From contig CAJVPP010000079.1 of the NCBI GenBank assembly GCA_910592005.1, positions 1 to 51,347 on the forward strand: a DNA stretch of 51,347 nt. Reading direction: 5' to 3'. Each line of letters begins with the position of its first letter. Positions within the stretch are counted from its first letter, which is position 1. This stretch comes from Funneliformis mosseae (taxonomy: Eukaryota; Glomeromycota; Glomeromycetes; Glomerales; Glomeraceae). The notes below the pieces were generated by a model that saw only the letters and a list, made by a program, of their open reading frames with translations, was not told where the DNA came from and did no database searches. Below are positions 359 to 51,151 of the stretch, in pieces. Both the position numbers and the translations under genes were made by a program.

Positions 359-811
359 CTGATTTTTAGCCGATTTGGATTATTTCGACTAGTGATACAA
401 CTGCTAGACTATTATGATATTTTGTTATATATTTTTATATTATACTATACTATTATTTACATTAACATGAGTGCTACGTTATGTTAGCCATATGTCTACT
501 ACTTTTTATAATATATGTAGTGGTTACATGGCTACTACCTAGCTCAGATTTCATGTGTTTCAGTAAAGTAGCAGCTAGAGTATTTTAAATTTTATAAAAA
601 TCAGTTTTGCCATAAACTTTATATTATAAAATAAATTCAAAAGTCTTGAATTAAACTCAAATTTAATATTACGCCAGATTTATTTAGAGTAAATAAATTT
701 TTGCACTAGAAAATGATGACTTAATCAATGAATTAATTCCTCTTTACTTTTTAATTCTAACATCATTACAATGTGTACATGAGGCTATGTTTACGTTATT
801 ACGTTAGATTT
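359..811. other. AT-rich sequence without a gene; contains one arm of a long-range inverted repeat
   Basis: No coding region is visible. Positions about 480-575 resemble, in inverted orientation, positions about 18470-18555 (shared words ACTTTTTATAATATATG, GCTACCTAGCTC and AGTAAAGTA). The remainder is AT-rich filler next to the LTR. Confidence 0.4.
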
Positions 812-1520
812 TGTAACTTCAAATAAAATCTCAAAAGGAGTAAATAAAACTAAGACAATTACTCAAGGAATCACGAGTGAGGATTCACAATAACTTCAAA
901 GAATTATTCTCAATAATAATCACGTGAGATAAACACAAGATAAACACAAAGATAACTCAAAGATATTTCAGAGATTACGCTTCAGAGACTCTAAGTTAAT
1001 ACAGCGAATCAATACAATATCATATAATAAGTTCTTTAATGAAAGGAATTGCACGAATGTAAAAAGTCACAGATAATTTATAACAGTTTCAATGGGTTTG
1101 TGAAGAATTAGATTTATACTTAGTTAATTATACTCCTTTATTAATATACTGTAATATATAAGTTCAATACCTAAAAGATTGATATCTCGTCAATGCTGAG
1201 ACTCAAAGAAAATACAGAGATATTTATACATGTTGAATAAATAATAAAACAAACTAACTAAATATATCAAAGAAAATAAAGTTGCCATTTTGCTAGGTAA
1301 TAAAGTTGCTATGTCAATAAAATTGCCAGATCTTCAGGCAACTAAATGGATATCTATGATCTACATGATTATCAAAGGCAATAAAATTAATATTTAAGAA
1401 TTTACATAATTGATTGATGGTAATAAAATGAACAAAATGATCTTTATAGAAGATCTACATGGCAATAAAATTGACTTTCTATTTTACTAATTAAATCTAT
1501 CTAAAATTTTACCTGTCACA
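812..1520 (-). repeat. Probable 3' LTR of the reverse-strand Gypsy element
   Basis: Read on the reverse strand, the segment opens TGTGACAGG directly after a polypurine tract (AAGAAGAGGAAAA, about 1521-1533) and a fitting end is GAAGTTACA near 812, so the ends form the short inverted pair TGTRAC/GTTACA. A TATA-like TATAAATATC lies inside near 1228. The start is well supported by the polypurine tract and by the overlap with the stop codon of the preceding ORF. The far end is a guess, because no second LTR copy is present to compare with. Confidence 0.55.
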
Positions 1521-1605
1521 TTTTCCTCTTCTTAGATTTGAGCTCCATTGAAGAATTTTTCTTTCTTCTTTTAATTCTCTTAGACAAGGCCATAAAGATA
1601 ATTCC

Positions 1606-2555
1606 TAAAGCTTTGAATGATTCGGATTAATCTGAAAATTTTTAGTTCAGTTCAGATTTTTTTTGGATTATAAATCTAATCTGAACCGAAAAAAATCTGA
1701 ACTGAACCGAAAATTTTGGATTTATCTAAAATTTCAGATTGTTTAAAACAATTAAATTTATTGTTCTAAACGAACGATAAAAAAATCATTCGATTAGAAT
1801 GATGAAATTATCATTCAAAACGAACGATAAGAAAATCATTTGATTGGAATGATGAAATTATCATTCCAAACGAACGATAAGAAAATTGTTCGATTGAAAT
1901 AATAAAATTATTATTCTAAATAAATGATAATAGAATCATTCAATTGAAATGATCAAATTATCGTTCCAAACGAACGATAAGAAAATTATTCGATTAGAAC
2001 GATCAAATTATTATTCTAAATGAATGATAAGAAAATCATTCGATTGGAACGATAAAATTATCATTCCAAACAAACAATAAAGAATCATTTGATTAGAACG
2101 ATTAAAATATCATTCTAAATGAATAATAATAGAATCGTTCAATTGAAATGATAAAATTATCATTCCAATCGAACGATAAGAAAATCATTCAATTAGAACG
2201 ATCAAAATATCGTTTAAAATGAATGATAATAGAATCGTTTGATTGGAACGATCAAAATATTACTCTTTTGGAATGATTAAATTATCGTTCTTTTGGAATG
2301 ATTAAATTATTGTTCTTTTGAAATGATTAAATTATCGTTCATTTGGAACGATTGAAGTTATCATTTTAAATGATCCAAAATTTCAGATTAATTTGAAATT
2401 TTCAGTTCAGTTCATATTTTTACAAGTTTACAGTTCAGTTCAGTTTCGGATTGGCATTTTTAAGATTTTTAATCTAAACTGAACTGAACCAAAATTTTCA
2501 GTTCAGTTTCGAATTGGCCTATAATCTGGACTGAACCAAACTGTTCAGAGTATTA
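1606..2555. mobile_element. MITE, hAT-like, with 8-bp target duplication
   Basis: The element is bounded by diverged terminal inverted repeats (left TAAAGCTTTGAATGATT, right inverted TAATACTCTGAACAGT) and by an 8-bp near-perfect duplication, ATAATTCC at 1598-1605 and GTAATTCC at 2556-2563. Each end carries GTTCAGTTCAG-type repeats that can pair with one another. The interior (about 1740-2380) is a tandem array whose units contain AACGAACGATAA and ATTATCATTC. It has no coding capacity. Eight-base duplications are typical of hAT elements; the family assignment is inference. A related copy lies at 14849-15595. Confidence 0.75.
1745..2370. repeat. Minisatellite array inside the MITE
   Basis: About ten diverged units of roughly 60 bp are present. 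Each unit alternates an ATCGTTCNNNTCGAACGAT-like palindrome with AT-rich spacers (AAAATCATTCGATTGGAACGAT). The units are themselves partly palindromic, so the array could fold into serial hairpins. It ends where the GTTCAGTTCAG subterminal repeats begin. Confidence 0.7.
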
Positions 2556-2929
2556 GTAATTCCTAATTCTTGAGCATATTCCTTTTGAGTTGTTCTTTTT
2601 TGCAGAAGTTTTTCAGGAATTTCATTTTTCACGGATTCTTCTTCCTGGTAGATTTTGTCCATTAAGTCTATTAATTTATCTGAATTAGTCTTTTCCCAGA
2701 GGTTGATAATTATCAAAAGTAACTTGATATCATTTTCTTTTAGCATATTATTAGCTTTTTCAACGTTTTCAATATCTTGTCGATATTTTCTTACGAAATG
2801 ACTCATTTGTTGGAAATTTTCAAACATTTTCAGGAAAATTGAGATTCATAGTCTAATCAGCATCCTTTTATATTTTGTTTATTTATTCAAACATAGATCA
2901 TAGGATTCCAATTTTGCCGATCGTAATAG

Positions 2930-3960
2930 ATTTTTAGTAAACTTGCATTGATTGGTATCCTAAGAATTTGTCCTTCGGTAGATCTTAATTTGTACGCTCC
3001 ATTGAGTAGTATGAAATGGATATAGAATGGTTCTTTTCATTTTTCATTCAATTTTCCAGTCCAAGTTTTCTCTTTGGCAACATCATATAAAAGAACTTTA
3101 TCTCCAATTTTAAATTCAATTGGTCACTTGATTTTTGAGTCATATCGCTTCTTTTGTTATTCTTGTGCCTTTGTCACATTTTCTATTGCTTGTTGCCTAT
3201 TTTTTTCTAAGTTTTCCAAATTTATTTTCAAAGTTTCATTTTCAAGAGTGATAATTGGTAATCTTGCTTCTCTTCTATAGGTCAAATAAAATGGTATAAA
3301 TTTCATAGTAGAATTTTTTACAGTTCGATATGCAAATAAAACAGAATTTATAACACTATTCCATTCTTATAAATTCTTTGTTACTTTCATTATAGATTCA
3401 CACAAGTTCTTATTGAATCGCTCAACTAATCCATTAGTTTGAGGATAGTACAGTATTGATAATAGATGTTTAATTTTAAACTTATTCATTAAACCTTTTA
3501 CTACTTGATTTCTAAAATGTGTTCCTCAGTCAGAAAGAATATAATTTGGACATCCATATCAGCAAATTATATTTTCATAGATAAATTCTACAACTGTTTT
3601 TGCATTATTTGCTAGGGTTGCACTTGCTTCAGGTTATTTAGTTAAATAATCAGTAGCTATGATTATATAATGATTTCCTTTATTGGTCAATGGTAATAGT
3701 TTTACAAAATCTATTCCTATTTTCTCAAAGGGCTTTCCTACTGGTATTAGGTATAAGAGAATACTGTTTTTCATAGGCTTTCCTTTTTTTGGCAAGAGTT
3801 ACAGGCTTTAATATAATTTCTAATGTTTTCAAACATTTGCGACCAGTAATAGTTTTCTCTAATCTTTTTAAAGACCTTTTCTGTTCCTAAATATCTACCG
3901 GTAGGATGATTGTGTGTTGCAAAGAGTATCGTTTCTATTTTATTTGTTTTCAATACTTTA
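2930..3960 (-). pseudogene. Gypsy integrase (HHCC zinc domain, DDE core, GPY/F-like tail)
   Basis: The N-terminal HHCC domain is open at 3771-3953, with HNHPTGRYLG, ENYYWSQMF and the CNSC pair. The core follows in broken frames: GIDFVKLLPL holds the first acidic residue, SD-stop-GTHFRNQ the second, and NGLVERFNKN the Glu. A tail near 2930-3080 has GDKVLLYD and a spaced WTGKL motif like the GPY/F module. One stop falls at LTK-stop-PEA, where Trp is usual. All three catalytic acids are still legible, but the enzyme is dead because of nonsense codons. Confidence 0.8.
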
Positions 3961-4256
3961 AGATAGCTTCCAGGATTTCTCTTATTTATTTTATAAAGTT
4001 GATTTTCTAAGATAATAAAATGTTTTGATTATCTGATAATTTGTTTGGCTAATTTCTTATCATTTGGTAAATTTGATGTAATTAAATAATGTTTAAGTTA
4101 ATTATATCGATTTTTTTCCATTTTTAAACTTGAACTATCAATCATAATGTTGATACTTTCTCTTTTACTCTATTATTTGTTAATAAGATAAAATTATTGG
4201 AGCATAGCGAACAATTGTGCATAAGCATTTTCTTATTAAACAAGTAAAGATTCAGT

Positions 4257-4688
4257 CTACCATAAATCATTAGTTAAATAGTTAGGATTCATATCAGGAT
4301 GAATTTTGCCACATTCGAATCTAATAATATAATCATTAAAAATGATTCTATAAGGTAAATTATGTTTGCATGTCTTGCAATACGTGTAAATGTGATGGTT
4401 TTCAATATCACAAAAGTTAGTATATTTAAAGCTTTCTTTGGTAATTGGTTGATTTGCAATTACTTGTTTAACTTTAATATTTTCTTTATAAATTTCGATC
4501 ATTTCATCATTTAGGTATTGGTATTCAATGGTAATCAATGAGTGATTTTCAAATTGATTCATTAATTCTTGCTCAAAATAAACTTCAGTATCATTTTCTT
4601 CTATGCTATTTTCTGATGAAGAGATATGCCATTGGATTTCCTTTTCTTCTGATTCATCAAGATTTTCATCAGTTTGTACAGAAATCAT
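4257..4688 (-). pseudogene. Cys/His-rich domain between RNase H and integrase
   Basis: The open segment encodes an acidic first half followed by a compact module with CDIENHHIYTYCKTCKHNLP and a later Cys in RFECGKIHP. The arrangement Cys, His-His, Cys-x2-Cys, Cys could bind zinc. The same module, including CDIENHH and the following NLPY, appears at the same relative position in the second Gypsy element near 49440-49676, so it is a conserved part of the polyprotein of this lineage. I do not recognise a named family. Confidence 0.6.
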
Positions 4689-4689
4689 G

Positions 4690-6180
4690 TAAGTTTTTAT
4701 AATTTTATCAGAATCTTTATTATTATTAGGATTAATTCTGGATAAGGCGTCAGAATTTGCATTATTTTTTCCTAAATGGTATTGAACTTGAAATGTATAT
4801 TGCTGAAGATTTAATAACCATCTAGCTCTTTTAGTTCAATTTTTCATAGTTGAAATTTGTAATCATTTCAATGCTACATTATCAATTACTAAGATAAAGG
4901 ATTTTAAGGAAGTATAGTGATGAAAGTATTAAACTGCCTAGTTGATTGCTAGACATTCTAATTCTTGAGTACTATAGTTTTGTTCATGTAACTTTCTCTT
5001 TTTCTTGATCGTTCTTTTGTGCAAGTATAGCTCCTAGTTCAATTCCTGAGACGTCAGTGAAAAGATAAAACATTTTATCAAAATCTGGATATTCTAATAT
5101 TAGAGCTTAAGTCAGTTTTCCTTTCAAGGTTTCAAATGCATTTTGACATTCATTTGTCCAGTCATATTCAATTTCTTTCTTCATTAAGTTATTCAGAGGT
5201 TTAGCAATTTTTGAGAAATCCTTGATAAATTTTCTGTAATATGATGCCAATCCAAGAAATCCTTTAATTTGTCTCACATTCTTTGGTACAGAGAATTCTT
5301 GAACTTTCTCTATTTTTTGAGGGTTTGGTAGGATTCCATATTCATTAATTTTATGTCCTAAGAATCGTAATTCTCTTTTGAACATTTCACATTTTTCTTT
5401 GTTTAATATAAGGTTTGCTTTCCTCAGCTTGTGAAAGAGCATTTGAAGATGTTCACAATGTTCTTCAAAACTATTTGAATAAACGATAATATCCATTAAT
5501 AAAGACTGCTACAAATCGGTCAATGTATTCTTCTAGTACTTTATTCATTGTTTTCTGAAAGGTTGCTGGGGTGTTGCATAAACCAAAAGGTATAACATTA
5601 AATTCATAATGTCCACTTTAATTACAAATGCAGTTTTTCTCTATCCTTAGGATTCATTTTAATTTGCCAGAATCCACTAGCTAGGTCGAATGTTGAGAAC
5701 CATTTTGCTCCATTTAAGTTTTCTAAAATTTTATCAATTCTAGGCAAAGGATAAGCATCTTTTCTTGTAAGTTATTAAGTCTTCTATAATCAATGCATAG
5801 TCTTTTCTTTCTATTTGCTTTCTTCACAAGAATTGCAGGTAATGCCTATGGACTGTCAGATACTTGAATAATTCTTTCACATAGCATCTTCTTAATTTCT
5901 CCATCGATAAATTCTTGTTCTTCTTTTATCGTTCGATAGTAATATCTCCTAATTGGATCAGCATTTCTTATATCGATTTTATATCGAGCTACATTGATTC
6001 TTCTAACTCTAGTTAATTATCTAGTTTCAGAGATGTTAGTAACAAATCTATCTTTATTTTCTTCCATTAAAACATCAATTTCTCTTTGTTGCTTTGGAGT
6101 TACAATTTCTTCTTTCACAGTTTTCGCTTGTATAGTTTTTGCAAGACTATTAGGCAAGTTATTCCATACAATTCAATCTA
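4690..6180 (-). pseudogene. Gypsy reverse transcriptase and RNase H
   Basis: The fingers region is visible near 5800-6000 (ERIIQVSDSP, KKRLCIDYRRLNN). FDLASGFWQIKMNP follows near 5650-5700, and the thumb is open at 5107-5496 (FLGHKINEYGILP, FLGLASYYRKFIKDFS). The catalytic YxDD segment near 5496-5515 is damaged: it reads FIN, then a one-base insertion, then DIIVYSNS. RNase H ends near 4760 with a DALSRI motif. Several further stops occur. It is a clear Gypsy RT but inactive. Confidence 0.85.
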
Positions 6181-6204
6181 ATATTTTGTTAATAAATGTC
6201 ATAT

Positions 6205-6605
6205 GATTTGGGGTAGTTTTCCTTGTTTGGCTATTTCTTTATATTTCAGAAAACTGAGACGAATCTAAGGTTCATTTTTATCTTCTTTAGTTTGTTTCAA
6301 TCTAGTTCCTTTAGGAAACTTTGTAGTATAAATATTGCAATTAAATTCTGAGTCATTAAATAGATATTCTAAGTCTTTTTCCTTGACTTTTACTCCAGTT
6401 TCTTCTTCAGTTTCTTGTATTGCTGCTTTCATTGGATATTTATTCCCTTCTACTTTTCCTCCAAAAGATTGTCATATTCCATACATAACTTCTCCTTTTC
6501 TGATTGAGAGAAATATACTATCTTTATCGTACAAGATGTTAAGTACATATCTGAGATGGTTAACTTCTTTTTCATATGCTTCTACTTCATCAGCCCAAGA
6601 TTGAG
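6205..6605 (-). pseudogene. Nudix-hydrolase-like domain inside Gypsy pol
   Basis: In the same reading frame as the end of the protease, and after an acidic linker, the sequence reads about 130 residues ending near LPQI. The core, FGGKVEGNKYPMKAAIQETE followed by EETGV (6388-6466), matches the Nudix box GX5EX7REUXEEXGU. The terminal Glu residues are kept. The Arg is Gln and the first Glu is Lys, both explicable by G-to-A change. It is preceded by GI-stop-QSFGGK, where Trp-Gln is usual for Nudix proteins. Nudix enzymes hydrolyse nucleoside diphosphates linked to another moiety, including oxidised dNTPs. Its place between protease and RT parallels dUTPase in some retroviruses. It has two internal stops. 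The role in the element is inference. Confidence 0.7.
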
Positions 6606-6619
6606 TTGAGTTTTTCTCC

Positions 6620-7140
6620 CAGGTTTGATTCTAAAGGTCAGTATCTTCTTCTTGTTCTTCAATCTCAATGACATAGCTATCTGTTTCTTCTTCGTCATCA
6701 TATTCAAATCCTTGCTCAATCATTTTATCAAATTTGTCTTCAATGGTTATGACTCGAATTCTTTTTCTAATGACACATTGTACTGGAACTATAGCTTTAT
6801 CCAATCCAGAGGTAAGGATTATTTCATTATTCTCAAAGTCAACATTAACTTTATTTTTCTTGCATTAATCAATTCCTAATAATAAGGTTTGATCAGTTGA
6901 ATCAATAACTTGAAATGTTGTTTTGATGAGAATTTCTTGAATAAATAATGGCACATTTTTAATAGTTTCTAGTGCTCTTTCTCTCTGTCTATTTGCAGTT
7001 ACAATAATTATTTATAAAGATTCATCAATATCTAGTTTAAGTTTCTTCATTAACTTGTGCGTCATGATGCTTACTGCAGCTCCTGTATCAATAATAGCAG
7101 TTATAGGATTTTTCTTAATTTTAACATGACATCTCAGTAT
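6620..7140 (-). pseudogene. Gypsy retropepsin and acidic linker
   Basis: The active-site segment reads ITAIIDTGAAVSIMTH (about 7063-7112), with the DTGA motif intact. The C-terminal part has LLLGID-stop-CKKNKV, where Trp is normal after the Asp. An acidic stretch (EYDDEEETD, EIEEQEEDTD) follows and leads in the same frame into the Nudix-like domain. The single-chain protease would dimerise to process the polyprotein. The stop codons make it inactive. Confidence 0.75.
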
Positions 7141-7599
7141 TATAGTTCACTCTTCTTCGTCTGAAGTACTAGTAAATGCTGCATTTTCTTCTAATTTAGG
7201 TCTTCTCATTCCTTGAAGAAGTTTTTGTTGCACTCTGAATTACATCATTTGTCTCATATTAATATTAGCTTTAATGTTTACAAGGTCATCCCAAGTGATA
7301 TAAGGTTTGATATTATCCAAAAGTAATGGTCCTCTAGATATTCTCTTCCTAGGCTTAGTAGTATTGTCTACTACTGTTTGGAGTATTTGTTCAATTATTT
7401 CCATTGGTTCATTAATTGTTTGAGATTGAGTTCGTCTATATTAGTTTCTCTTTATGATTCAGATCTTTTTCTCTTAATCGCTGGAAAGACTTTTTGTTTA
7501 AGCATGTTTACTTCCTTTCTGTTTTGGTCACCATTTCTGGTTCTTCAGTTATCTTATGGTAAAACCTTTTTTGAGAGACATCATCTGACTATATGACCT

Positions 7600-8397
7600 T
7601 TTACTCTACATCTGAAATAGATTAACTCTTTCATTAGTTTGTCTTCAGGATTGTAACTCTTTCTTTTAGTTGGATTAGTGGTTAATGCAGCCATAATGTT
7701 TACTTTATTTAAAGCTATTTGCTCAAATTGTTTAGACAATTTTTCAATATCATCTTTAACTTTTGGCTTGCTAAAATCGTGTTCTGTTGCATAATATCTT
7801 CCAGCTTCAACAGTTTTAGCTTAAGTAATAGCGGTATTTAAGTCAGCTGGATTTTGAATTATGACTAATGTTGCTAGTTTCTTATTTAATCTACTTAAGA
7901 ACATTTGTACTTTAAAAGGCATTTGGAATTCCTCCTGCATCTACTCTATTTGCTAACTTCTTAAATCTAGATACATAGGCTTCAACCTTTTCATTTTCTT
8001 GTTTCAGATTCATTAGTTCATATTGCCATTTATGTAATTTTTCTTGCAATGAGAAGCGTGCTAAGAAATTTTTCCTGAATCCTGTGTTTATATCTCCATC
8101 TCATCTGTTAATTGTAGTGCTTACTAGATTATACCAGTCAGTTGCTTCTTCCCTTAACATTCCTGCTGCAATTGCTAATCTTCTATTGTTTGGCCATCCA
8201 TTAGCTTCTTTTGCTCTTAAAAACATTTCAATCCATTCTTGAGCATCTTCGCTATCTTTTTTATAAAAAGGGTTGACTTTTACAATAGAACTTCTTGCCG
8301 CAGGTGGTGTCAGGATATTAATACTATTAAATTCATTAGTCATACTGGTTGTAATTTGCGTTATCAATGCATTGAGTTGGTCTACTGTTATAGCCAT
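7600..8397 (-). pseudogene. Gypsy gag with decayed zinc knuckle
   Basis: The frame opens MAITVDQLNALI at 8397. It contains the gag helical region with AQEWIEMFLRAKEANGW and EEATDWYNLV before a stop at 8101. Further downstream a CCHC knuckle is still recognisable near 7570-7615 as YFRCRVKGHIVR-stop-CL. There the first Cys has become Tyr and a stop has replaced the residue before the last Cys. Gag would form the virus-like particle and bind RNA. Confidence 0.75.
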
Positions 8398-8419
8398 GTT
8401 TGTAAGGTTTGGTGGAGGG

Positions 8420-8820
8420 ATTTCTCCATAAGTGAAGTGGTTAGTGTTATGTGAGGTAATAAGTATATGTTGATATATTACTTCTGGTTCAAAGTAATAC
8501 GTAAATCCAAGGCTGAATACTAAAGATATTATTGCTTTTGCTGCTTATTCAATGTTAAGACTATGAGAATTATTAACGTTAAATACTGTCCTATTTCTTC
8601 AAAGTATTGTTCACTTAGAGATAAATATGTATATGCACGATATTGTTGGTAAATCCACTGATAGAATCTTTGAAATTGAATACTTGGGTTTCCAGATGGT
8701 CAATGATAAATTCTACAGACTTATCAAAGGATTTTATGAGGTGTGTTTATCCTAAATATTTGAAATAGTCGTCTGAGTGTTGTTTTCTTATTTTACTATA
8801 TAGGTCAGAATTCATGTACT
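8420..8820 (-). pseudogene. Conserved region upstream of gag
   Basis: In two frames the reverse strand encodes KSVEFIIDHLETQVFNF and then, after a shift, FQRFYQWIYQQYRAYTYLSL. The second Gypsy element encodes related words in the same position (NIVEYIVKHYLNS, and out of frame FQNFWNWFYYEYCAKTY, about 45140-45320). Conservation in both elements suggests a real N-terminal coding region ahead of gag. Its function is unknown. Confidence 0.4.
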
Positions 8821-8989
8821 AGTATGATGCGAATGGTCTAAAGCTACCACTTTTTTATTTTATGGCCAAATTCTTTGGCCGATAATACAGTCACGTGAAA
8901 TGAATTTTATTAGACAATAATCACATAATTTATATTATTTATCATTACCAACTAATATTATTTTATTCTTAATTTTTGTTTAAAATAAT

Positions 8990-11030
8990 TATACATTAAT
9001 TACATTATTAGGAATTCTTTGATATGATTTATATTTTTTTACAGTATATAATGCTTCTATGCCTGTTATTCCTTTTCTATATGCATTCATGAATCTTCAA
9101 GATCTGCGTGCGTAACCTCTAATTGTTTTTAAAGAAATTGAATTCAATGCTTCAGGAACTATTTTTTCTAATCCCTTAAAAGAATAATCACAATTATTAA
9201 GAGTATATCATTTAGTAGCACCCCAAAACATCTCAATAAAATTGAGCTCACAATGAAATTTTTGGATAAAAGATAACTTTATATCCACAATCTTCAATTA
9301 TTTTCCTAATTAATAGTCTTTGAGCTAAAAAATCTGGTTGAAGTAAAAGTATTCGAATTGCATAGCAATTATTTGCAATTGGTGAATGTTTTTTGCAATT
9401 AGAACAAATACGATTTACACCTCTTTCTGGCCATAATCCACATTCCTTCAAAACTAAATAAATTCCTTTAGGTCTTACATTTAAAAAATGCATTGATTGT
9501 ATTGATCCATCAGGCATTATCCCATTTTTAAATTTTCCTTTACCACCTGAATTAAGATTCATTTTTGATGCAATCAAAGCATCCTTTGTATATGCAGCAT
9601 GAGGTGTTACATTATCGAATGCAAATATACCAATATTATCAGGATGCAGTTTTTTAAAAATTGGAATTGCTTTTTCAGTAATCTAATTATAAGGTAATTT
9701 AAATTTAAATTATTATTATTTTTAAAATAATAAATAAAAAAAATATTTACCTGTTTAACTAAATCTTCAGTTTTTCACCATCCATCACGATTAACACCTA
9801 GTTTCATCATAACACATGCTTCATTTTGTTCAAATTTTAATTGACCATCAATTTCTGTTAAAAAATCACTAACATGTAAGCTTAAACCTGCACCTTTTTT
9901 ATGAAGAGGCTAATGTCCAACAGGTCCCCAAAATGTTTTTTTACCATCATTAGCATAAAATATTGATTTATCATAAGTTATTAAAATATGTTTTTTATCA
10001 CCTTCATTTAAAATAGGCTCTACTAATATCATAATATCATCATTTGATAGTTTTAGCATCCATTGTTCCAATTGTGCCATCTCAGCTAAAAATTCTTGTC
10101 GATATTTAAGCACATCAGATCGCTCATGACCATCATAATAAATATCTTTATTTACTATATGAAATGTCCATCCAAAATATTTTAACCATACTCGTGCAGT
10201 AGTATTTGAAATTGATTTTTTATTTTTAATTCCAACACTTGGAAAAACTTCTTGCTTAATATATGCTTTAAATTTATCTACAGTTACATCACAACCAACA
10301 CTCCAAAGATATTCAGTAATCATTTGATAAATATCTTCATCACCTAATAAACTTTTAATTTTTTGATGTTTACCATGCATTAATGTTGAAATTGAACGAT
10401 ACATAATAAAATTTTGTGCCCATGCTCTAATTAAATACGCTTGATATTCTCCTTTTCCAATACTAGTTGCAATAGTTTTACTTGCTTCCATACACTTATA
10501 ACTGGCTAACCTTAAGTTAATATATTGAAAAATATGCTGTAATCGATTCTTAACTTAAAAAATCAACAATTTGTCCTTAATTAATATATTTAATTCATCA
10601 AATGCTAAATTAAACTCTTCTCTTTCTATTACTTCTTCAAGATTGATTAAATCATCAACTATAGTATTAATTTGATCATTTGATGAATTATTAAAGTATT
10701 TGGTAATACTAGAGGAACCTTTACTTGTTAATTTTAAAGCTGCTTTTTTCGCCTTTGAGTTTTACCAGAGTTTTCATGATAAGTTAATGAGCGTGCACTA
10801 TTAAAAACAGCAGAATCTTTTGCATTTTGACATATAATATCAAATGCAGATAAAGTAATCTTATCTACAGTTTCTTCCAAATTATCATCATTCCAAATAC
10901 TATCTTTTTCCAAACTATCAGATAATTCATCATCTGATAATAATCTATCATTTTTAGCAGCCTGTAGTTTTAATCTTTTACTTTCTCATGCAGCTACTAG
11001 TTGCTTATTACAAGACTTAAGAGGAGGCAT
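8990..11030 (-). pseudogene. DDE transposase with one intron and a few lesions
   Basis: The frame starts near 11030 (MPPLKSCNKQLVAA, then a TGA where Trp fits) and passes through a one-base shift near 10758. A segment with GSSSITKYFN continues to a stop near 10556 and then into the long frame 9910-10491. That frame has WSVGCDVTV, TARVWLKYFGW and the first acidic residue in ITYDKSIFYANDGKKTFWGP. An intron (9683-9750, GTAAAT...TTAG) follows EDLVKQ. The next exon has IFAFDNVTPHAA (second Asp). An extra A in a run near 9255 shifts the frame just before CELNFIEMFWG, which holds the catalytic Glu. The family is common in Rhizophagus and basidiomycetes. The lesions make it inactive. Confidence 0.75.
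9683..9750 (-). other. Spliceosomal intron of the DDE transposase
   Basis: On the reverse strand the intron begins GTAAATATTT and ends CCTTATAATTAG. Removing these 68 bases joins GWWKTEDLVKQ to ITEKAIPIFKKLHPDN in one frame, as expected for this family. Confidence 0.75.
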
Positions 11031-39289: not shown

Positions 39290-40654
39290 TCATATTCTTA
39301 GATTATCCAAGGAATCGCTGTATTAAAATGATAGAATAAGAATAAATCAAATTAAATAAATATTACGAAGAAAAGTTAAATATTTACCAAGTCATTATCA
39401 ATCTGCTAGTATATATAGCTTGAGGATGATTCACTTGTTTTTCAGCAGATGATAAAACATCATCATAACCTTTTAATTTGTCTATAATTTCATCCTTCAA
39501 ACTTTCAACAACACCTTTATTGTCTTTCCACCAAGCGGATGATAATTCATATAATTCTTTAGAAGTTTTTCTCTTGGAAGGAATTTGATCCCAACAACTT
39601 TCCATCATCTCAAGATAAAAATTAGGTATTTCTTTGTTAAATTTAGGACGAATACCATTGCATATGTCTATCGTTAAGAGATGATCATGGGCTACACCTT
39701 GAAATGGTTGACAATTAGTAGCAATCAAATACATTGCCATTCCTAAACCATAAATATCGGCAGCTTGTGTGTACGGTTTTTTATTTAATACCTCCGGAGG
39801 TAAGTAAGGCATAACTCCATAAATTTCATTATCTAATCCCTGTTCATTTAACGGACCACTTAATCCCAAATCAGAGATACACGAATGTCTGGAAGAAAAT
39901 TCTCTCATCAAGAGGTTACCAGAATGGAAATCTCGATGAATTAATCCTTTCTCGTGAATGGTATAAAGACCCTTGATTATGTAATGAAGCAGATATAATT
40001 TATCCGCCCATTTATGCTTGTTGTAATTTTCTGTTAACCATTCATGCAGATTTCCTCCGCACATCAATTCGAGAACCATGATATATTCCTTTGTTTGTGG
40101 ATCCTGTGAAATCCCATAACATCTAAGCAATCCCTTGTTATAATCATAAATTGGATAATTTCTAACCTATTAAAATAATATTTAATACGTGTGGTGGTAC
40201 TTTGATAAATTTTCGTTAAATTTACCTCGTTTAAGAATGCTTCGGTCAAATCGTTTGTACCATGCAAACGTTTTAAAGCAACCATGTCTTCATACCGTTC
40301 ACATATACGATAGACTTCATTGTAAACCTTTAAAGAATTTTTCCAAATTGCGGAATAAATTGTGGCGAATCCACCTCTCCCGATTTGCTGTATATCCCTA
40401 AAATTTTCATAAGGTATCCACTCAAAAAATTCATACGGACTTCTCGCCATTTGCTGTTCTTTCTTAATGAAATCATCAATTTCCTTAACCCCACTCCAAG
40501 TACATTCATTTTCTTGTATGTATTTTATTGAGCATTTCTTACACCAACGGATTTTTACGAACTCGCTCTCTTCCGCATGAGAATAAGGATTTTTACAATT
40601 TATACACAGTTCTCCTTTTTCATTTTTTTCATTAAATAAAATTTCAGACTCCAT
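39290..40654 (-). CDS. Protein kinase with N-terminal Cys-pair module, DLG type
   Basis: Exons 40654-40226, 40166-39388 and 39317-39290 give 411 residues. If the last intron is not removed, the frame stops at 39384 instead. The N-terminus holds two Cys pairs (CINCKNP and WCKKC, residues about 17-40) that may bind zinc. The kinase domain has the glycine loop GRGGFATIYSA, the VAIK-equivalent MVALKRL, HRDFHSGNLL as catalytic loop, SDLGLSG where DFG is usual, and PPEVL as the APE equivalent. All residues needed for catalysis appear present. HRDxHSGN and DLG are hallmarks of the large kinase family expanded in Glomeromycotina, often linked to Sel1 repeats; none follow here. The C-terminus (IYTSRLIMT, then DSLDN) matches that family's tail. 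Substrates are unknown. Confidence 0.88.
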
Positions 40655-45599: not shown

Positions 45600-46740
45600 G
45601 CCTCTCCAGTACTTTCTGTAACTAGCTTATTAATAACCCCTGTTACTACCTCACTACTAGAAGTAATGACAACAGCAGCTACAGGTAAATAAATAAAACT
45701 AGCTCTCAAAGGAATCTTTGGAATAGATAAAGTTCGATTAAATGCATTAGGATAAACAGAATGAATTACAGTAAAGGTTGATTACTTTTATAATACTGAA
45801 GCTAAAGATCCTGTAGAATAGCTTACTACCTTTAAAAAAGCCACCACTATTAACTGATAGATTAATGCTATAAGAAAGAAAGTCATAGCTGAAGAATACT
45901 TAAAAGGAGCTACCGCTGATTGATTCGAAGAAAATATAGTAACCATAGGGAATAATTGGGTCACAACCTCCAATAGTAAAAATAATTTTGTAGATATGTT
46001 CAACATCAGGTTTATCAACAAAACTCAGAAGAATGAATGGTATTAGGAGTTATCTTCCTTACGATAACATTCAGACAAATCAGTAGATTCTTATGCTAAT
46101 AAGTTCTGAAAATTAGTAAAAAGAGTAGGCTTGACTGATAATGCCCAACAAAAATGAATGTTCCTTATAGGATTTAACCTAGTATATATCCTAATAGTAT
46201 ATGCACAAAACCTGAATGATTTAGCTACTACAGTAAATGCTGCTAGAAACATCGAAATTGATTATAATTTTACCACTGAAAAAACTCTAAGAAATATAAG
46301 AGTAACCCCTTTTACTTCCATTCTTGCTCTACTAAAACCCACTCTAATCGTTAATACTAAAATAGATAAACTTATAAAAAAATTAGAACAACTTACTATA
46401 AATTATGCTAATTTATTCTCTGCAATATTAGCTCAGCCACAGGTCTTGAAAAGAAGAAACAGACCTAATAAGATTACCTACAGGCCTCAGAATATCAGAT
46501 CTAATATGAACACTTATCAATCTCAAAACGTCAGATCTAATGATTTTACCTGCTATAATTACAATACTTCAGAACATATTGTGAAAATTGCATTCAACCG
46601 TGATAATATCATCAAGATAATCATAAAACCCATTTTAGCAAAACTAGAGAAATGTATCTTGCAGACCAATATACTGATGAAGAATACGATAACTACGATT
46701 ATGAAACAGATAAAAATGAGAAGTATGAAGTTTACCTGAA
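45600..46740 (+). pseudogene. Gypsy gag of the second element
   Basis: The capsid region reads NTEAKDPVE-stop-LTTFKKATTIN-stop near 45800, and further on VIAEEYLKGATAD-stop-FEEN. The stops stand where Trp is expected. An open part at 46158-46739 follows (ILIVYAQNLNDLATTVNAAR). The zinc knuckle is reduced to CYNYNTSEHIVKIAF, having lost two of its three cysteines. It is non-functional. Confidence 0.7.
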
Positions 46741-47179
46741 TACCTGATTGAGACTGTATCCTGATAATTTAATGTTCAAAAATTGAAGAATCAAATGCGT
46801 AGAATCTCAAAGAAAAGAAAACCTTAAAAGGTTTTCTAAATTGACCATTATGCTAAATCTTGCAGAATAATTCACGCAAATGAATCTAGCTCTAATGCAA
46901 CTTAAAGTTCTGAATAATCTTAAGAATGTAAAAAGAAGATTAATATCAGCTCTGATTAAACAACTAACAGAGTTCAATGTTGCTACTTATCTTCAGAATT
47001 TTTTATGCATCATATTAGTTGGACAAGCCACTCATTCCATATCAAATTATCATTTCAGTTTGGCTAAGGCTGTAAGGGGATCTAGAAAAAAAGCTTCTAA
47101 AGAATCCAAAGAAGCTAATTTAGCTAAGAGCGATAACAAGCCTACTTTCGCAGCTAAATATACTCTATGAATCAGAAAA

Positions 47180-47667
47180 AAAGCCCAAACTGCTATAATT
47201 AACAGTGGCACAACTACAAGTATTATTACAAAAGCCTTGCTAGATAGTTTAGGATATAAATTGATTGAGACTCAAAAATGATTGTATTTACAGCCAATGG
47301 AGCTAGAACTCGCTCCCTAGAAATTGTAGATGATATCTCAGTAGTAATAAGAAGGATCAAAATTCTAATTTCCTTTCAAGTTTTGGAATCTAAAGATGAA
47401 ATCCTAATTCTAGGTAATGATTGGCTCAAAAATTTAAATGCCAACATAAATTGGAAAAAATCCACTTTAACTATTAGAAAAAGCCAAATTACTATTCAAA
47501 TTCTGATTAACTTCATGAAAACCTTAACAGTAGTAACTCATAATATACCAGAAAAAGTTTTAGAAGAAGAATATAAAGAGAAATCTCTAGAAGAAATACC
47601 AATTTATTTCTCTGATTCCTTTAAAGAAGATTCAGCTGACCAAGCTAAGCTAGAATTTAACTCTTAA
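47180..47667 (+). pseudogene. Retropepsin of the second Gypsy element
   Basis: The active-site loop reads IINSGTTTSIITKALL near 47195, so the catalytic Asp of the usual DSG is Asn (a G-to-A change). After a stop or shift near 47280 the C-terminal part is open and ends its fold with EILILGNDWLKNLNANINWK. An acidic linker follows directly, and no Nudix-like sequence is present before RT. Confidence 0.65.
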
Positions 47668-48049
47668 TAAATTTTTACTCTTCAGAAAGTTTTGAAGCTA
47701 AAACAGATAATGATGATGATGATGACGACTCAATAAATGCCAACAAAAATCTAGCAGTATTTTTAGCTGAAACTGTCTAAGACAAACCTATACCTATAAA
47801 CTAAACCAGACCTCTCAATTATTATCAATAGGGCTTTTTTAATTTCTTTAAATAACCACTCTGATATCTGTACTAAAAGTCAGACTAGAATCAGAAGAAC
47901 AAATTTAATAAAACATTGGATTTTAACTGGTAATGCTACACCTATCACATAAACTCCATATTGAACTAATCTAAAAAATTGAGAATTTTTTAAGAACAAA
48001 ATAGTTAAAATAGAAGAACAAGGAATAGTCTGAAAGTCTTCAAGCCCTT

Positions 48050-49190
48050 AGGCTTTATCTGTAGCAATTGTAGATAAGAAAGGTAGTGACAAAAGAATTT
48101 GCATTAACTATCACAAATTAAATACTATTACCAAAGTTGATGCTTATCCTTTACCTCGTATTAATAACCTATTGGAAAGTTTTGGAATCACTTAATGGTT
48201 TACTATATTGGATCTTGCAAGTAGATACTGTCAAGTAGCTATAGATGAAGCAGATATAGAGAAAACAGCATTTATAATACCTTTTGGGCTATACAAATTT
48301 TTAGTAATACCTTTTGGATTAAGTTACATACTAAAAACTTTTCAAAGACTAATGAATAAAGTCTTACAAGACTTTTTTGGAAATTTCTTTGTTGTATATT
48401 TAGATGATATTATAATCTATTCAAAAGGAAGCTTCAAAATGTATATGGACCATATATGCCAAGTATTCAAAGCTATTCGGAATACAAACTTAAAATTAAA
48501 TTAAAGAAGTGCTATTTTTGCTTACCAAATATTCATTTTCTAGAACATGTAATAGGATGAAATGGAATTCGTCTAGACCTAGAAAAAATAATTAAAGTCA
48601 AGAATTTTTCCAGACTAACGAACCTTACATAGTTCTGCACTGCTCTCAGATTATTTTCATACTATTAGAAGTTTATCAAAGATTTTTTAAGAATTGCTTG
48701 ACCTATGCTAACTTTATTAAAGAAAGATAAACCCTTTCTTTGGGGAAATAAATAACAAATAGCATTCAATAGACTAAAAGAGTTGTTAATCAAAGCTCTG
48801 ATCTTAAATTACCCTGATTTTAATAAACCTTTTATCATCTATATAGACGCATCTGTGATAGGTCTAGGAGTTGTTCTTTCATAAGAATAATCAGATGGAA
48901 AAGAACATATTATTGCCTATACAAGTCAGAGCTTAAATTCAGCTGAAAAGAATTATGCCATAACCGATCAAGAATATTTAGCAGTTATGTAGGATATAAG
49001 ATATTTCCAAAATTATTTAGGCAAGAAACTTTTTACACTTGTAACTTATTATTCAGCTTTGAAATGGTTATAAACTTCTAAATTACCTTAGAGACAAAGA
49101 GTAAGATAGGTAATAGAACTGCAGCAATATGAATTCACTATTAAACATAGACTTAGAAAAGCTAATGCAAATGCTAATGCTCTATTATAA
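48050..49190 (+). pseudogene. Reverse transcriptase and RNase H of the second element
   Basis: RT pieces include CINYHKLNTITKVDAYPLPR and LDLASRYCQVAIDEADIEKT, with an intact catalytic VVYLDDIIIYSKG (about 48390-48432). RNase H pieces are FIIYIDASVIGLGVVLS and HIIAYTSQSLNSAEKNYAIT near 48840-48965, and KHRLRKANANANALL near 49145. Many stops interrupt the reading frame. Confidence 0.8.
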
Positions 49191-49439
49191 ATACCAGAGG
49201 AATCAGAAGTATTTTTCCTAAACTTTGAATTGGATATAGAAACTGGCTATAATTCTTCTATTGAAAATAACTATATTACAGATAATCCATCCCATTCTGA
49301 AAAAAATAATGAATATGAGACTGAATGGTTCATCTCAAACCTCTCATATAGTCAGGATCAAATACTAGAAAATGAACTTTTTAATAATTAGTTTAAGCCA
49401 ATAATTACTACTATAAAATACTAATCTCCACTTGAGAAA

Positions 49440-49676
49440 ATGCAAGATATATATAAAACAAACATAAAAATTAAACAAGTATTAGCAGGATAACCTATAA
49501 ATAATGGAGGATCTAGATGTAATTATTCATGTGATATAGAAAACCATCACTTGCATACATACTATAAAGCTTGTAAAACAAATTTACCTTACAATACTGT
49601 TGAGCACAAGTATATAATCGAATATAAATTAGGTCAAATTCAACTAAACATGGATCTAAGATACTTAGATAATTAA
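49440..49676 (+). pseudogene. Cys/His-rich domain of the second element
   Basis: The segment contains MQDIYKTNIKIKQVL, then CDIENHHLHTYYKACKTNLP and LGQIQLNMDLRYLDN. It aligns with the module at 4257-4688 of the left element across about 80 residues. Two of the presumed metal-binding cysteines are lost here (CKTC reads YKAC, with an earlier Cys as Tyr). Confidence 0.6.
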
Positions 49677-50089
49677 GTATGATAAAATGAGCTGATAGAA
49701 GTTAAAACACAATCATTAGAAATTCAGATGCAAGTATTACATAGAATACTTCAAGGACTTCCCTTTTATTCCACTCCTCTTGAACATATTCAACCTGAGT
49801 TTCCTGAATTAGATTAAGATTTTTTTTTCTTACCATTTTTTTTTATTAATTATCTACATTATTTAAGATGAAAGCAAAAGTATGTGCAGTGTAACATACA
49901 GTCCATCATGAATATTAATCAATATAATCGTATTTATTTTTATATTACACAACAAACTATTTTTACAGAATTAATAACCCTAAAATTATCAAACAATTTA
50001 AAAACTTTTACATACCTTATACAGTCTAAAATAATTATTTATATAGAAATGATATAAGAAACCTTAGAAAGCTATTAAGGATAATTAGA

Positions 50090-51125
50090 ACTCATGAAAT
50101 GGAAGCTATTTTATACATGATGCATAATAATCTAATAGCTGAACATTTTGCTACTAATATTATATTCGACAAAATCAGAAAGTGATATTATAAATGTATG
50201 AAAATATTCGTACATATGTTAAAAGTTATAACAAATGTTAAAGAAGAGAAAAACTAAGCAAACATAAAAATTTACATCCAATGCAATACAAGCACCTTTC
50301 TATCAAATCAGAATTGATTTTATAGGACCTTTACCCTAATAGACAAAGGAAAAAAATATATTATAGTAGCCATTGATTATTTTACTAAGTAGTAGAAGCA
50401 AAGGCTATATCAGAAGCATCTGCTTCTCAAGTAGCCTAATTTGTTTATAAAGAAATTATTTGTAGTTATGGATGTTTAATGAAGATATTAACTGATTGAG
50501 GAATCTACTTTAATAACAAAATGATTAATGAATTAATGAATAAATTTAAAATAAAACACCTTCTATTAACTTTTTATCATTTCCAAACTAATGGTCTAGT
50601 AGAAAGATTTAATAGAACTCTATGTGAGTCCTTAGCTAAAACTGTCTAAGAAATTTCAAATTAGGATTTGCAAATTGCATTCACTTTATTTGCATATTAA
50701 ACTTCTAAGCAATTGATAACTAAGATATCTCCCTTTTATTTAACATATAGAAGAGATGAATGATTACTCCTTGATGAACTAATTGAAGAAAATATGACTC
50801 TAAATCAACATATAGAATCTTTAATAGATGATTTATCGCAAATTAGGAGAAAAGCTAAAAACTATATGGAAAAATCACAAGTAAATCAGAAAGATTGACA
50901 TGATCGTAACCTAAAGAAAATCTTTCATTTTAAAATAGAAGACAAAGTTTTGTATTACTATGTGACAAAAGAAAAGCAATGGTCTAGAAAATTAGAACTA
51001 AAATGAAAGGACCATACTATATTCATTAAATCTTATTGAAGGGATCTTATAAAATAAGAGAAATGAGTGAAAAAGTTTTACAAACACCTGTTAATGAAGA
51101 TCTCTTAAAACAATATCATGACTGA
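50090..51125 (+). pseudogene. Integrase of the second Gypsy element
   Basis: The HHCC domain is partly preserved (HNNLIAEHFATNIIFDKIRK). The core has IIVAIDYFTK with the first acid, LTD-stop-GIYFNNK with the second, and TNGLVERFNRTLCESLAKTV with the Glu. The tail has KIEDKVLYYYVTKEKQWSRK and ends near PVNEDLLKQYHD. Stops are frequent. It is non-functional. Confidence 0.75.
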
Positions 51126-51151
51126 TAAAATTAGAAATCTTAAATAGTTAT

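Follow-up and report, generated by a model that had tools for sequence, protein, structure and literature searches.

What is a Nudix domain doing in the polyprotein of a retrotransposon, and does it belong to the element at all? The question is raised by a stretch of 51,347 nucleotides from Funneliformis mosseae (contig CAJVPP010000079.1, C79 in a surveyed genome of 82 Mb; hereafter the window), whose minus strand carries a decayed Ty3/Gypsy element with the order GAG, protease (PR), Nudix, reverse transcriptase (RT), RNase H and integrase, as read with profiles seeded from sister copies. We consider it reasonably likely that Ty3/Gypsy subfamilies of arbuscular mycorrhizal-type fungi carry a Nudix hydrolase domain in the gag-pol frame, which would act on nucleotides near the RT. 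The parts of this reading differ in strength. The Nudix identity of the domain and its place in gag-pol are as good as certain, a predicted catalytic role is probable, and for the cleaning of the nucleotide pool, a putative role suggested by analogy, we see roughly even chances.

A Nudix domain in the gag-pol frame

An earlier reading of the letters of the window (the sequence-only reading) had placed a Nudix box in frame between retropepsin and RT, and the text that it quoted is present in the frame at 6101-6699 of the minus strand. In the profile search that it proposed, the window domain, scored on 150 residues with X placed at three stops, reaches 24.4 bits (E 3.2e-5) against Pfam NUDIX (PF00293), above the cut-off of 21.1; copy L041 reaches 49.7 and the protein P0054 50.1. 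The window's 68-residue stop-free piece by itself scores 21.0, slightly below the cut-off, as might be expected if a decayed linker resembled a Nudix box by chance, but with the window domain as query this genome yields 54 matches at E <= 0.001, which refutes this explanation and leaves it next to no probability. The limits first proposed, 6205-6605, were slightly too short at either end. Two TGA codons and one TAG break the domain in the window. From the start of PR to the end of Nudix there are 315 codons with six stops and no frameshifts in a single frame, which also holds the best matches of GAG and RNase H, those of RT falling in the two others. The Ty3/Gypsy domain order GAG, PR, RT, RNase H, integrase is found both in the window, where Pfam RVT_1 is also matched, and in the sister copies.

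A complete Nudix box has the motif G-x5-E-x7-R-E-U-x-E-E-x-G-U. In the window copy the box is incomplete, with E changed to K, R changed to Q and a stop just upstream at 6474. It had been guessed that the ancestral copy had a complete box and that the altered residues arose by G-to-A changes, and both guesses agree with the sister copies. Copy L010/L041 reads GGKVEENENPIKAVVRETEEETGV, and L010, L039 and L042 have the full box at the eight scored residues. At the two positions altered in the window, E stands in 26 and R in 18 of 30 aligned copies (four of these rows are frameshifted within or near the box). Over the box residues as a whole, most of the departing codons can be reached by one or two G-to-A or C-to-T changes. 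The broken box of the window thus fits decay that is nearly all transitions: in sister copy L049, transitions make up 64 of the 67 mismatches between the two long terminal repeats (LTRs; 1312-2028 versus 8810-9525), which is an extreme bias. Methylation or a process like repeat-induced point mutation (RIP) is a possible route of this decay.

The sequence-only reading would have fallen had relatives of the element lacked the segment; related copies carry it at the same place. The 54 matches of the window domain (some copies yield two or three) and 55 obtained with P0001 as query merge into 51 distinct places, 35 of which were read as element copies, while the 16 others may include fragments or host genes. 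The copies were found through the Nudix domain, so its presence in 35 of 35 is no frequency. The arrangement PR-Nudix-RT occurs in 30 copies (subfamilies A1 and A2), with PR upstream of Nudix in 28 (C2603 and C1949 reach the contig end first) and RT downstream in 26 (none follows in C2283, C1572, C1679 and C3240, the last at a contig end). Five copies (subfamilies B1 and B2) have the order Nudix-PR-RT, with Nudix between nucleocapsid and PR. Neither this second arrangement nor the existence of close Gypsy relatives without the domain had been anticipated. One such relative, C3774, has PR and RT and no Nudix, its RT being 78% identical to that of L039, a copy in which the end of PR, Nudix, RT and RNase H share one frame of 628 codons, five of them stops. 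When the two are compared, residues 1-110 and 251-502 of L039 have counterparts in C3774, where only 32 residues stand in place of the intervening 140. Because C3774 aligns on either side without it, Nudix is a module in the PR-RT linker that is dispensable for the elements. The RT of C3774 (2667-3050) lies within an open frame of 1481 residues, and this Nudix-free element seems better preserved than the Nudix-bearing copies that were read.

Nudix genes do exist outside elements, and it might be supposed that a host Nudix gene or pseudogene was captured by chance in a single copy. Of the 20 Pfam NUDIX matches in the genome, four (C590, C780, C3326 and C1268) have no element domain in the surrounding stretch, which for C1268 is only 1.2 kb; 15 lie inside the elements described here, and C1824 was left out of this count. 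The survey refutes such a capture and makes it very improbable, since there are 51 places, the 35 copies read have the domain in two recurring positions, and the fusion occurs also in other fungi. A profile built from six Nudix domains retrieved 51 proteins, the named ones among the strongest being from Rhizophagus and Funneliformis, and a Nudix-PR profile retrieved 84, of which 15 combine NUDIX with an aspartic protease domain; Nudix precedes PR in 14 of these and follows it in one (P0097). A scan of viral contigs kept at least 80 loci. By pattern, the full box is present in nine of the 15, the D-S/T-G motif in ten and both in seven. P0058 and P0061 have a zinc knuckle upstream as well. Colinearity between P0005 and a single frame of copy L057 extends from Nudix as far as the beginning of RT (80% across 212 residues), and in P0111, from R. 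irregularis, the tail of a Nudix domain is fused to PR and RVT_1. Among 100 proteins (P0001-P0034 and P0052-P0117), many of them fragments or PR only, the full box is found by pattern in 32 and the stretch N-D-x-x-F/Y-N/D-C-D/N-x-Y in 56; a T-P-T-H signature, present in only 18, was dropped as a diagnostic. In P0009 (275 residues) a Nudix domain of the element family lies behind an N-terminal part that resembles an F-box by eye, and this is perhaps a host protein derived from the element.

Predicted activity and substrate

The box is conserved over deep divergence. The best A1, A2 and B1 copies, which are 44-49% identical, share all eight box residues, whereas their fourfold sites agree at 5 of 16, 7 of 13 and 11 of 18 (chance level 0.39). 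This comparison involves few sites, but argues for selection over deep branches. A fold search also identifies the domain as having the Nudix fold.

Several observations weigh against the reading favoured here. All three B2 copies lack the pair of glycines with which the box begins (the B2-like protein P0020 does have the box glycine), and pairs with the B2 copy L043 agree at only 5 or 6 of the eight box residues. Recent selection within A1 is weakly supported: the transition-only ratio is 0.73, with a column bootstrap of 0.54-1.06 and neutral simulation means of 1.01 and 1.25. Nei-Gojobori values within A1 (median 0.38; w < 1 in 190 of 190 pairs) were rejected as evidence of selection, neutral simulations with a milder transition bias giving medians of 0.67-0.71. 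The method misleads under such transition-biased decay; change within A1 is mostly decay after insertion. Of the 50 RT matches that are best for L039, no more than 10 have a Nudix match upstream, although contig ends may explain its absence from a few of the remaining 40. Among the proteins found, none has a whole Nudix domain and a whole RT, and a search of proteins of 345-1099 residues with the A2 Nudix domain gave no significant match among 240 candidates. Finally, the fold matches tie between several enzyme types. The missing glycines and the weak selection signal within the family would suit a Nudix fold without enzyme activity, retained as a spacer or binding module of the polyprotein. 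The full boxes in the best A1, A2 and B1 copies and in the nine NUDIX-protease proteins speak against this, and we regard it as quite improbable.

If the domain is an enzyme, on what would it act? MutT, the 8-oxo-dGTP diphosphatase, is a separate cellular enzyme. It has the same fold and is the best-scoring named relative by sequence, but L041 scores 40.6 bits against an NCBIfam cut-off of 148 (NF008044) and 35.0 against 97.9 (TIGR00586), P0002 scores 43.0 against the latter, and none of the eight proteins scanned exceeds an NCBIfam MutT cut-off. The main rival to action on nucleotides is RNA-end chemistry, in which the same domain, in the same place, would act on the RNA 5' ends of element or host transcripts by decapping or as a pyrophosphohydrolase. 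Dcp2 is a Nudix enzyme that acts in decapping; Dcp2 chains are among the top fold matches, and a sequence search of the PDB also matches Dcp2, at E about 1e-3, and g5R, a protein of mRNA decapping, at E about 3e-3. By sequence, however, MutT-type entries match far better (best E 3.6e-11), an NCBIfam MutT model covers residues 32-128 of L041, most of the domain, and the type A copies place the domain next to RT. We therefore hold action on RNA ends to be unlikely. The fold search was set aside as a guide to substrate on account of its ties; with a two-domain model, the matches listed cover mainly residues 17-158, and the PR half was barely probed.

For action on nucleotides, the element protease would either release the Nudix domain or leave it attached to the adjoining parts within the particle. 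There it would hydrolyse nucleoside triphosphates ((d)NTPs) that are damaged or unwanted, close to RT and while reverse transcription proceeds. Such a role is suggested by analogy with the dUTPase of fungal and rotifer LTR elements, as described in passages of two papers (PMC2864245, PMC5408684). The observation made in the sequence-only reading is confirmed, and its interpretation as a Nudix-like domain built into a Gypsy polyprotein is supported; cleaning of the nucleotide pool is a putative role.

Related systems and origin

The closest known systems are described in individual passages of the literature, to which the following statements refer. The PosPlaTy3 elements of Postia placenta are fungal Gypsy elements with a dUTPase whose place varies between families, lying between PR and RT in PosPlaTy3-5, and independent acquisition from different sources has been suggested (PMC2864245). 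They resemble the elements described here in having a Gypsy pol with an added nucleotide hydrolase at a variable place, and differ in the enzyme, dUTPase rather than Nudix, and in their basidiomycete host. In the bdelloid rotifer elements Juno, Vesta and TelKA a dUTPase likewise lies between PR and RT (PMC5408684), so that these LTR elements, too, have a nucleotide hydrolase in the PR-RT linker, but the enzyme is another one and the host an animal. Pfam scans of the element Nudix domain list NUDIX and no dUTPase, unlike the dUTPase-bearing Gypsy elements. Orchid Gypsy elements encode an AlkB-type RNA demethylase with demonstrated in vitro activity, again a captured enzyme conserved within a Gypsy lineage; here, however, AlkB is in a separate extra open reading frame (ORF) and targets RNA methyl groups (PMC9289625).

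Fixation of an extra domain in an LTR retrotransposon is regarded as rare (PMC9289625), and each such domain points to a step of the replication cycle that is important for the element. Among the titles and abstract openings listed in searches of open-licence literature, and in passages of PMC3248453, PMC8647823, PMC5576322 and PMC3985635, there is no description of a Nudix domain in an LTR element, and the earlier remark that no described Gypsy lineage with this arrangement was known still holds. The capture of dUTPase into Gypsy pol at varying places is known; the Nudix enzyme class and the fungal group are new, as far as searched. Since dUTPase is the one nucleotide hydrolase for which such a case was found, a Nudix hydrolase would add a second, of different chemistry.

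In an RT tree of 33 rows, two of them Nudix-free, A1 is supported at 100/99, B1 with B2 at 98/95 and A2 with the two Nudix-free elements at 98/91. In the Nudix trees A1, A2 and B2 each cohere, and the deep forks are without resolution. A single clade of A1 and A2 is neither supported nor rejected (p-AU 0.08). The domain may have been gained once, early on, and then been lost in places and moved, or it may have been gained several times. Tentatively, and as a reading that is less likely than not, we suggest that the Nudix module is mobile among Gypsy elements of arbuscular mycorrhizal fungi, has shifted between two gag-pol places and has been gained or lost repeatedly. On this reading a conserved stretch beyond the box (N-D-x-x-F/Y-N-C-D-x-Y) is peculiar to the module, as its substrate may be, and the NUDIX abundance reported for gene sets of these fungi is mostly retrotransposon pol. 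According to passages of PMC7550596, NUDIX is one of the domains that Miyauchi et al. list as differing substantially in abundance in arbuscular mycorrhizal fungi. Gypsy-borne Nudix domains may help to account for this, a tie suggested because 15 of the 20 Pfam NUDIX matches in the present genome sit in elements.

Structure of the window element and its surroundings

The features of the element are collected in the table. By comparison with L049, the window copy retains one LTR, and beyond 8824 it has no match to the 5' LTR or the first 397 body bases of L049. The LTRs of L049 are about 718 bases long and 90.4% identical to each other. They have TG...CA ends, the 3' LTR is preceded by a purine tract, and ACAT may be a target repeat.

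Features of the Nudix-bearing Gypsy element in the window (local profiles are those seeded from sister copies)
Feature	Position	Strand	Evidence
3' LTR	799..1522	-	88.4 and 88.7% identity to the two LTRs of L049
Stretch without counterpart in L049, mostly 25-base repeats	~1608..2555	not assigned	gap between L049 matches 1525-1607 and 2556-8824
Element body as matched to L049	2556..8824	-	87.1% identity, 6320 columns
Integrase core, two frames	3508..3866	-	local profile E 5e-49 and 3e-14
RT end and RNase H region	5020..5451	-	local profile E 3e-52; Pfam RVT_1 44 bits over 5110-5508
RT, split across two frames	5492..5839	-	local profile E 3e-21 and 1e-19
Nudix domain with stops, core 6181-6552	6181..6633	-	Pfam NUDIX 24.4 bits; local profile E 3e-44
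Nudix box GGKVEGNKYPMKAAIQETEEETGV, two motif residues altered (E to K, R to Q)	6391..6462	-	translation
Retroviral-type aspartic protease (AIIDTGAAVSIM)	6970..7125	-	local profile E 3e-15; translation
GAG	7882..8292	-	local profile E 3e-47

The 25-base repeat array occupies 1680-2402, inside the retrotransposon and within the stretch missing from L049. Just past the truncated end of the element, at 9248-10554 on the minus strand, two ORFs resemble a DNA transposase by eye; a Pfam scan of 9910-10551, part of these ORFs, gave no match. A second decayed Gypsy element lies at about 46158-51130 on the plus strand, with an RVP_2 protease at 47269-47664 and RT at 48058-48429. It has no Nudix match, and in the RT tree it groups with A2 and C3774. 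The minus strand of the window also holds pieces of a cytochrome P450 gene (24503-24916; Pfam 45.5 bits) and of a protein kinase gene (39387-40166; 100.3 bits).
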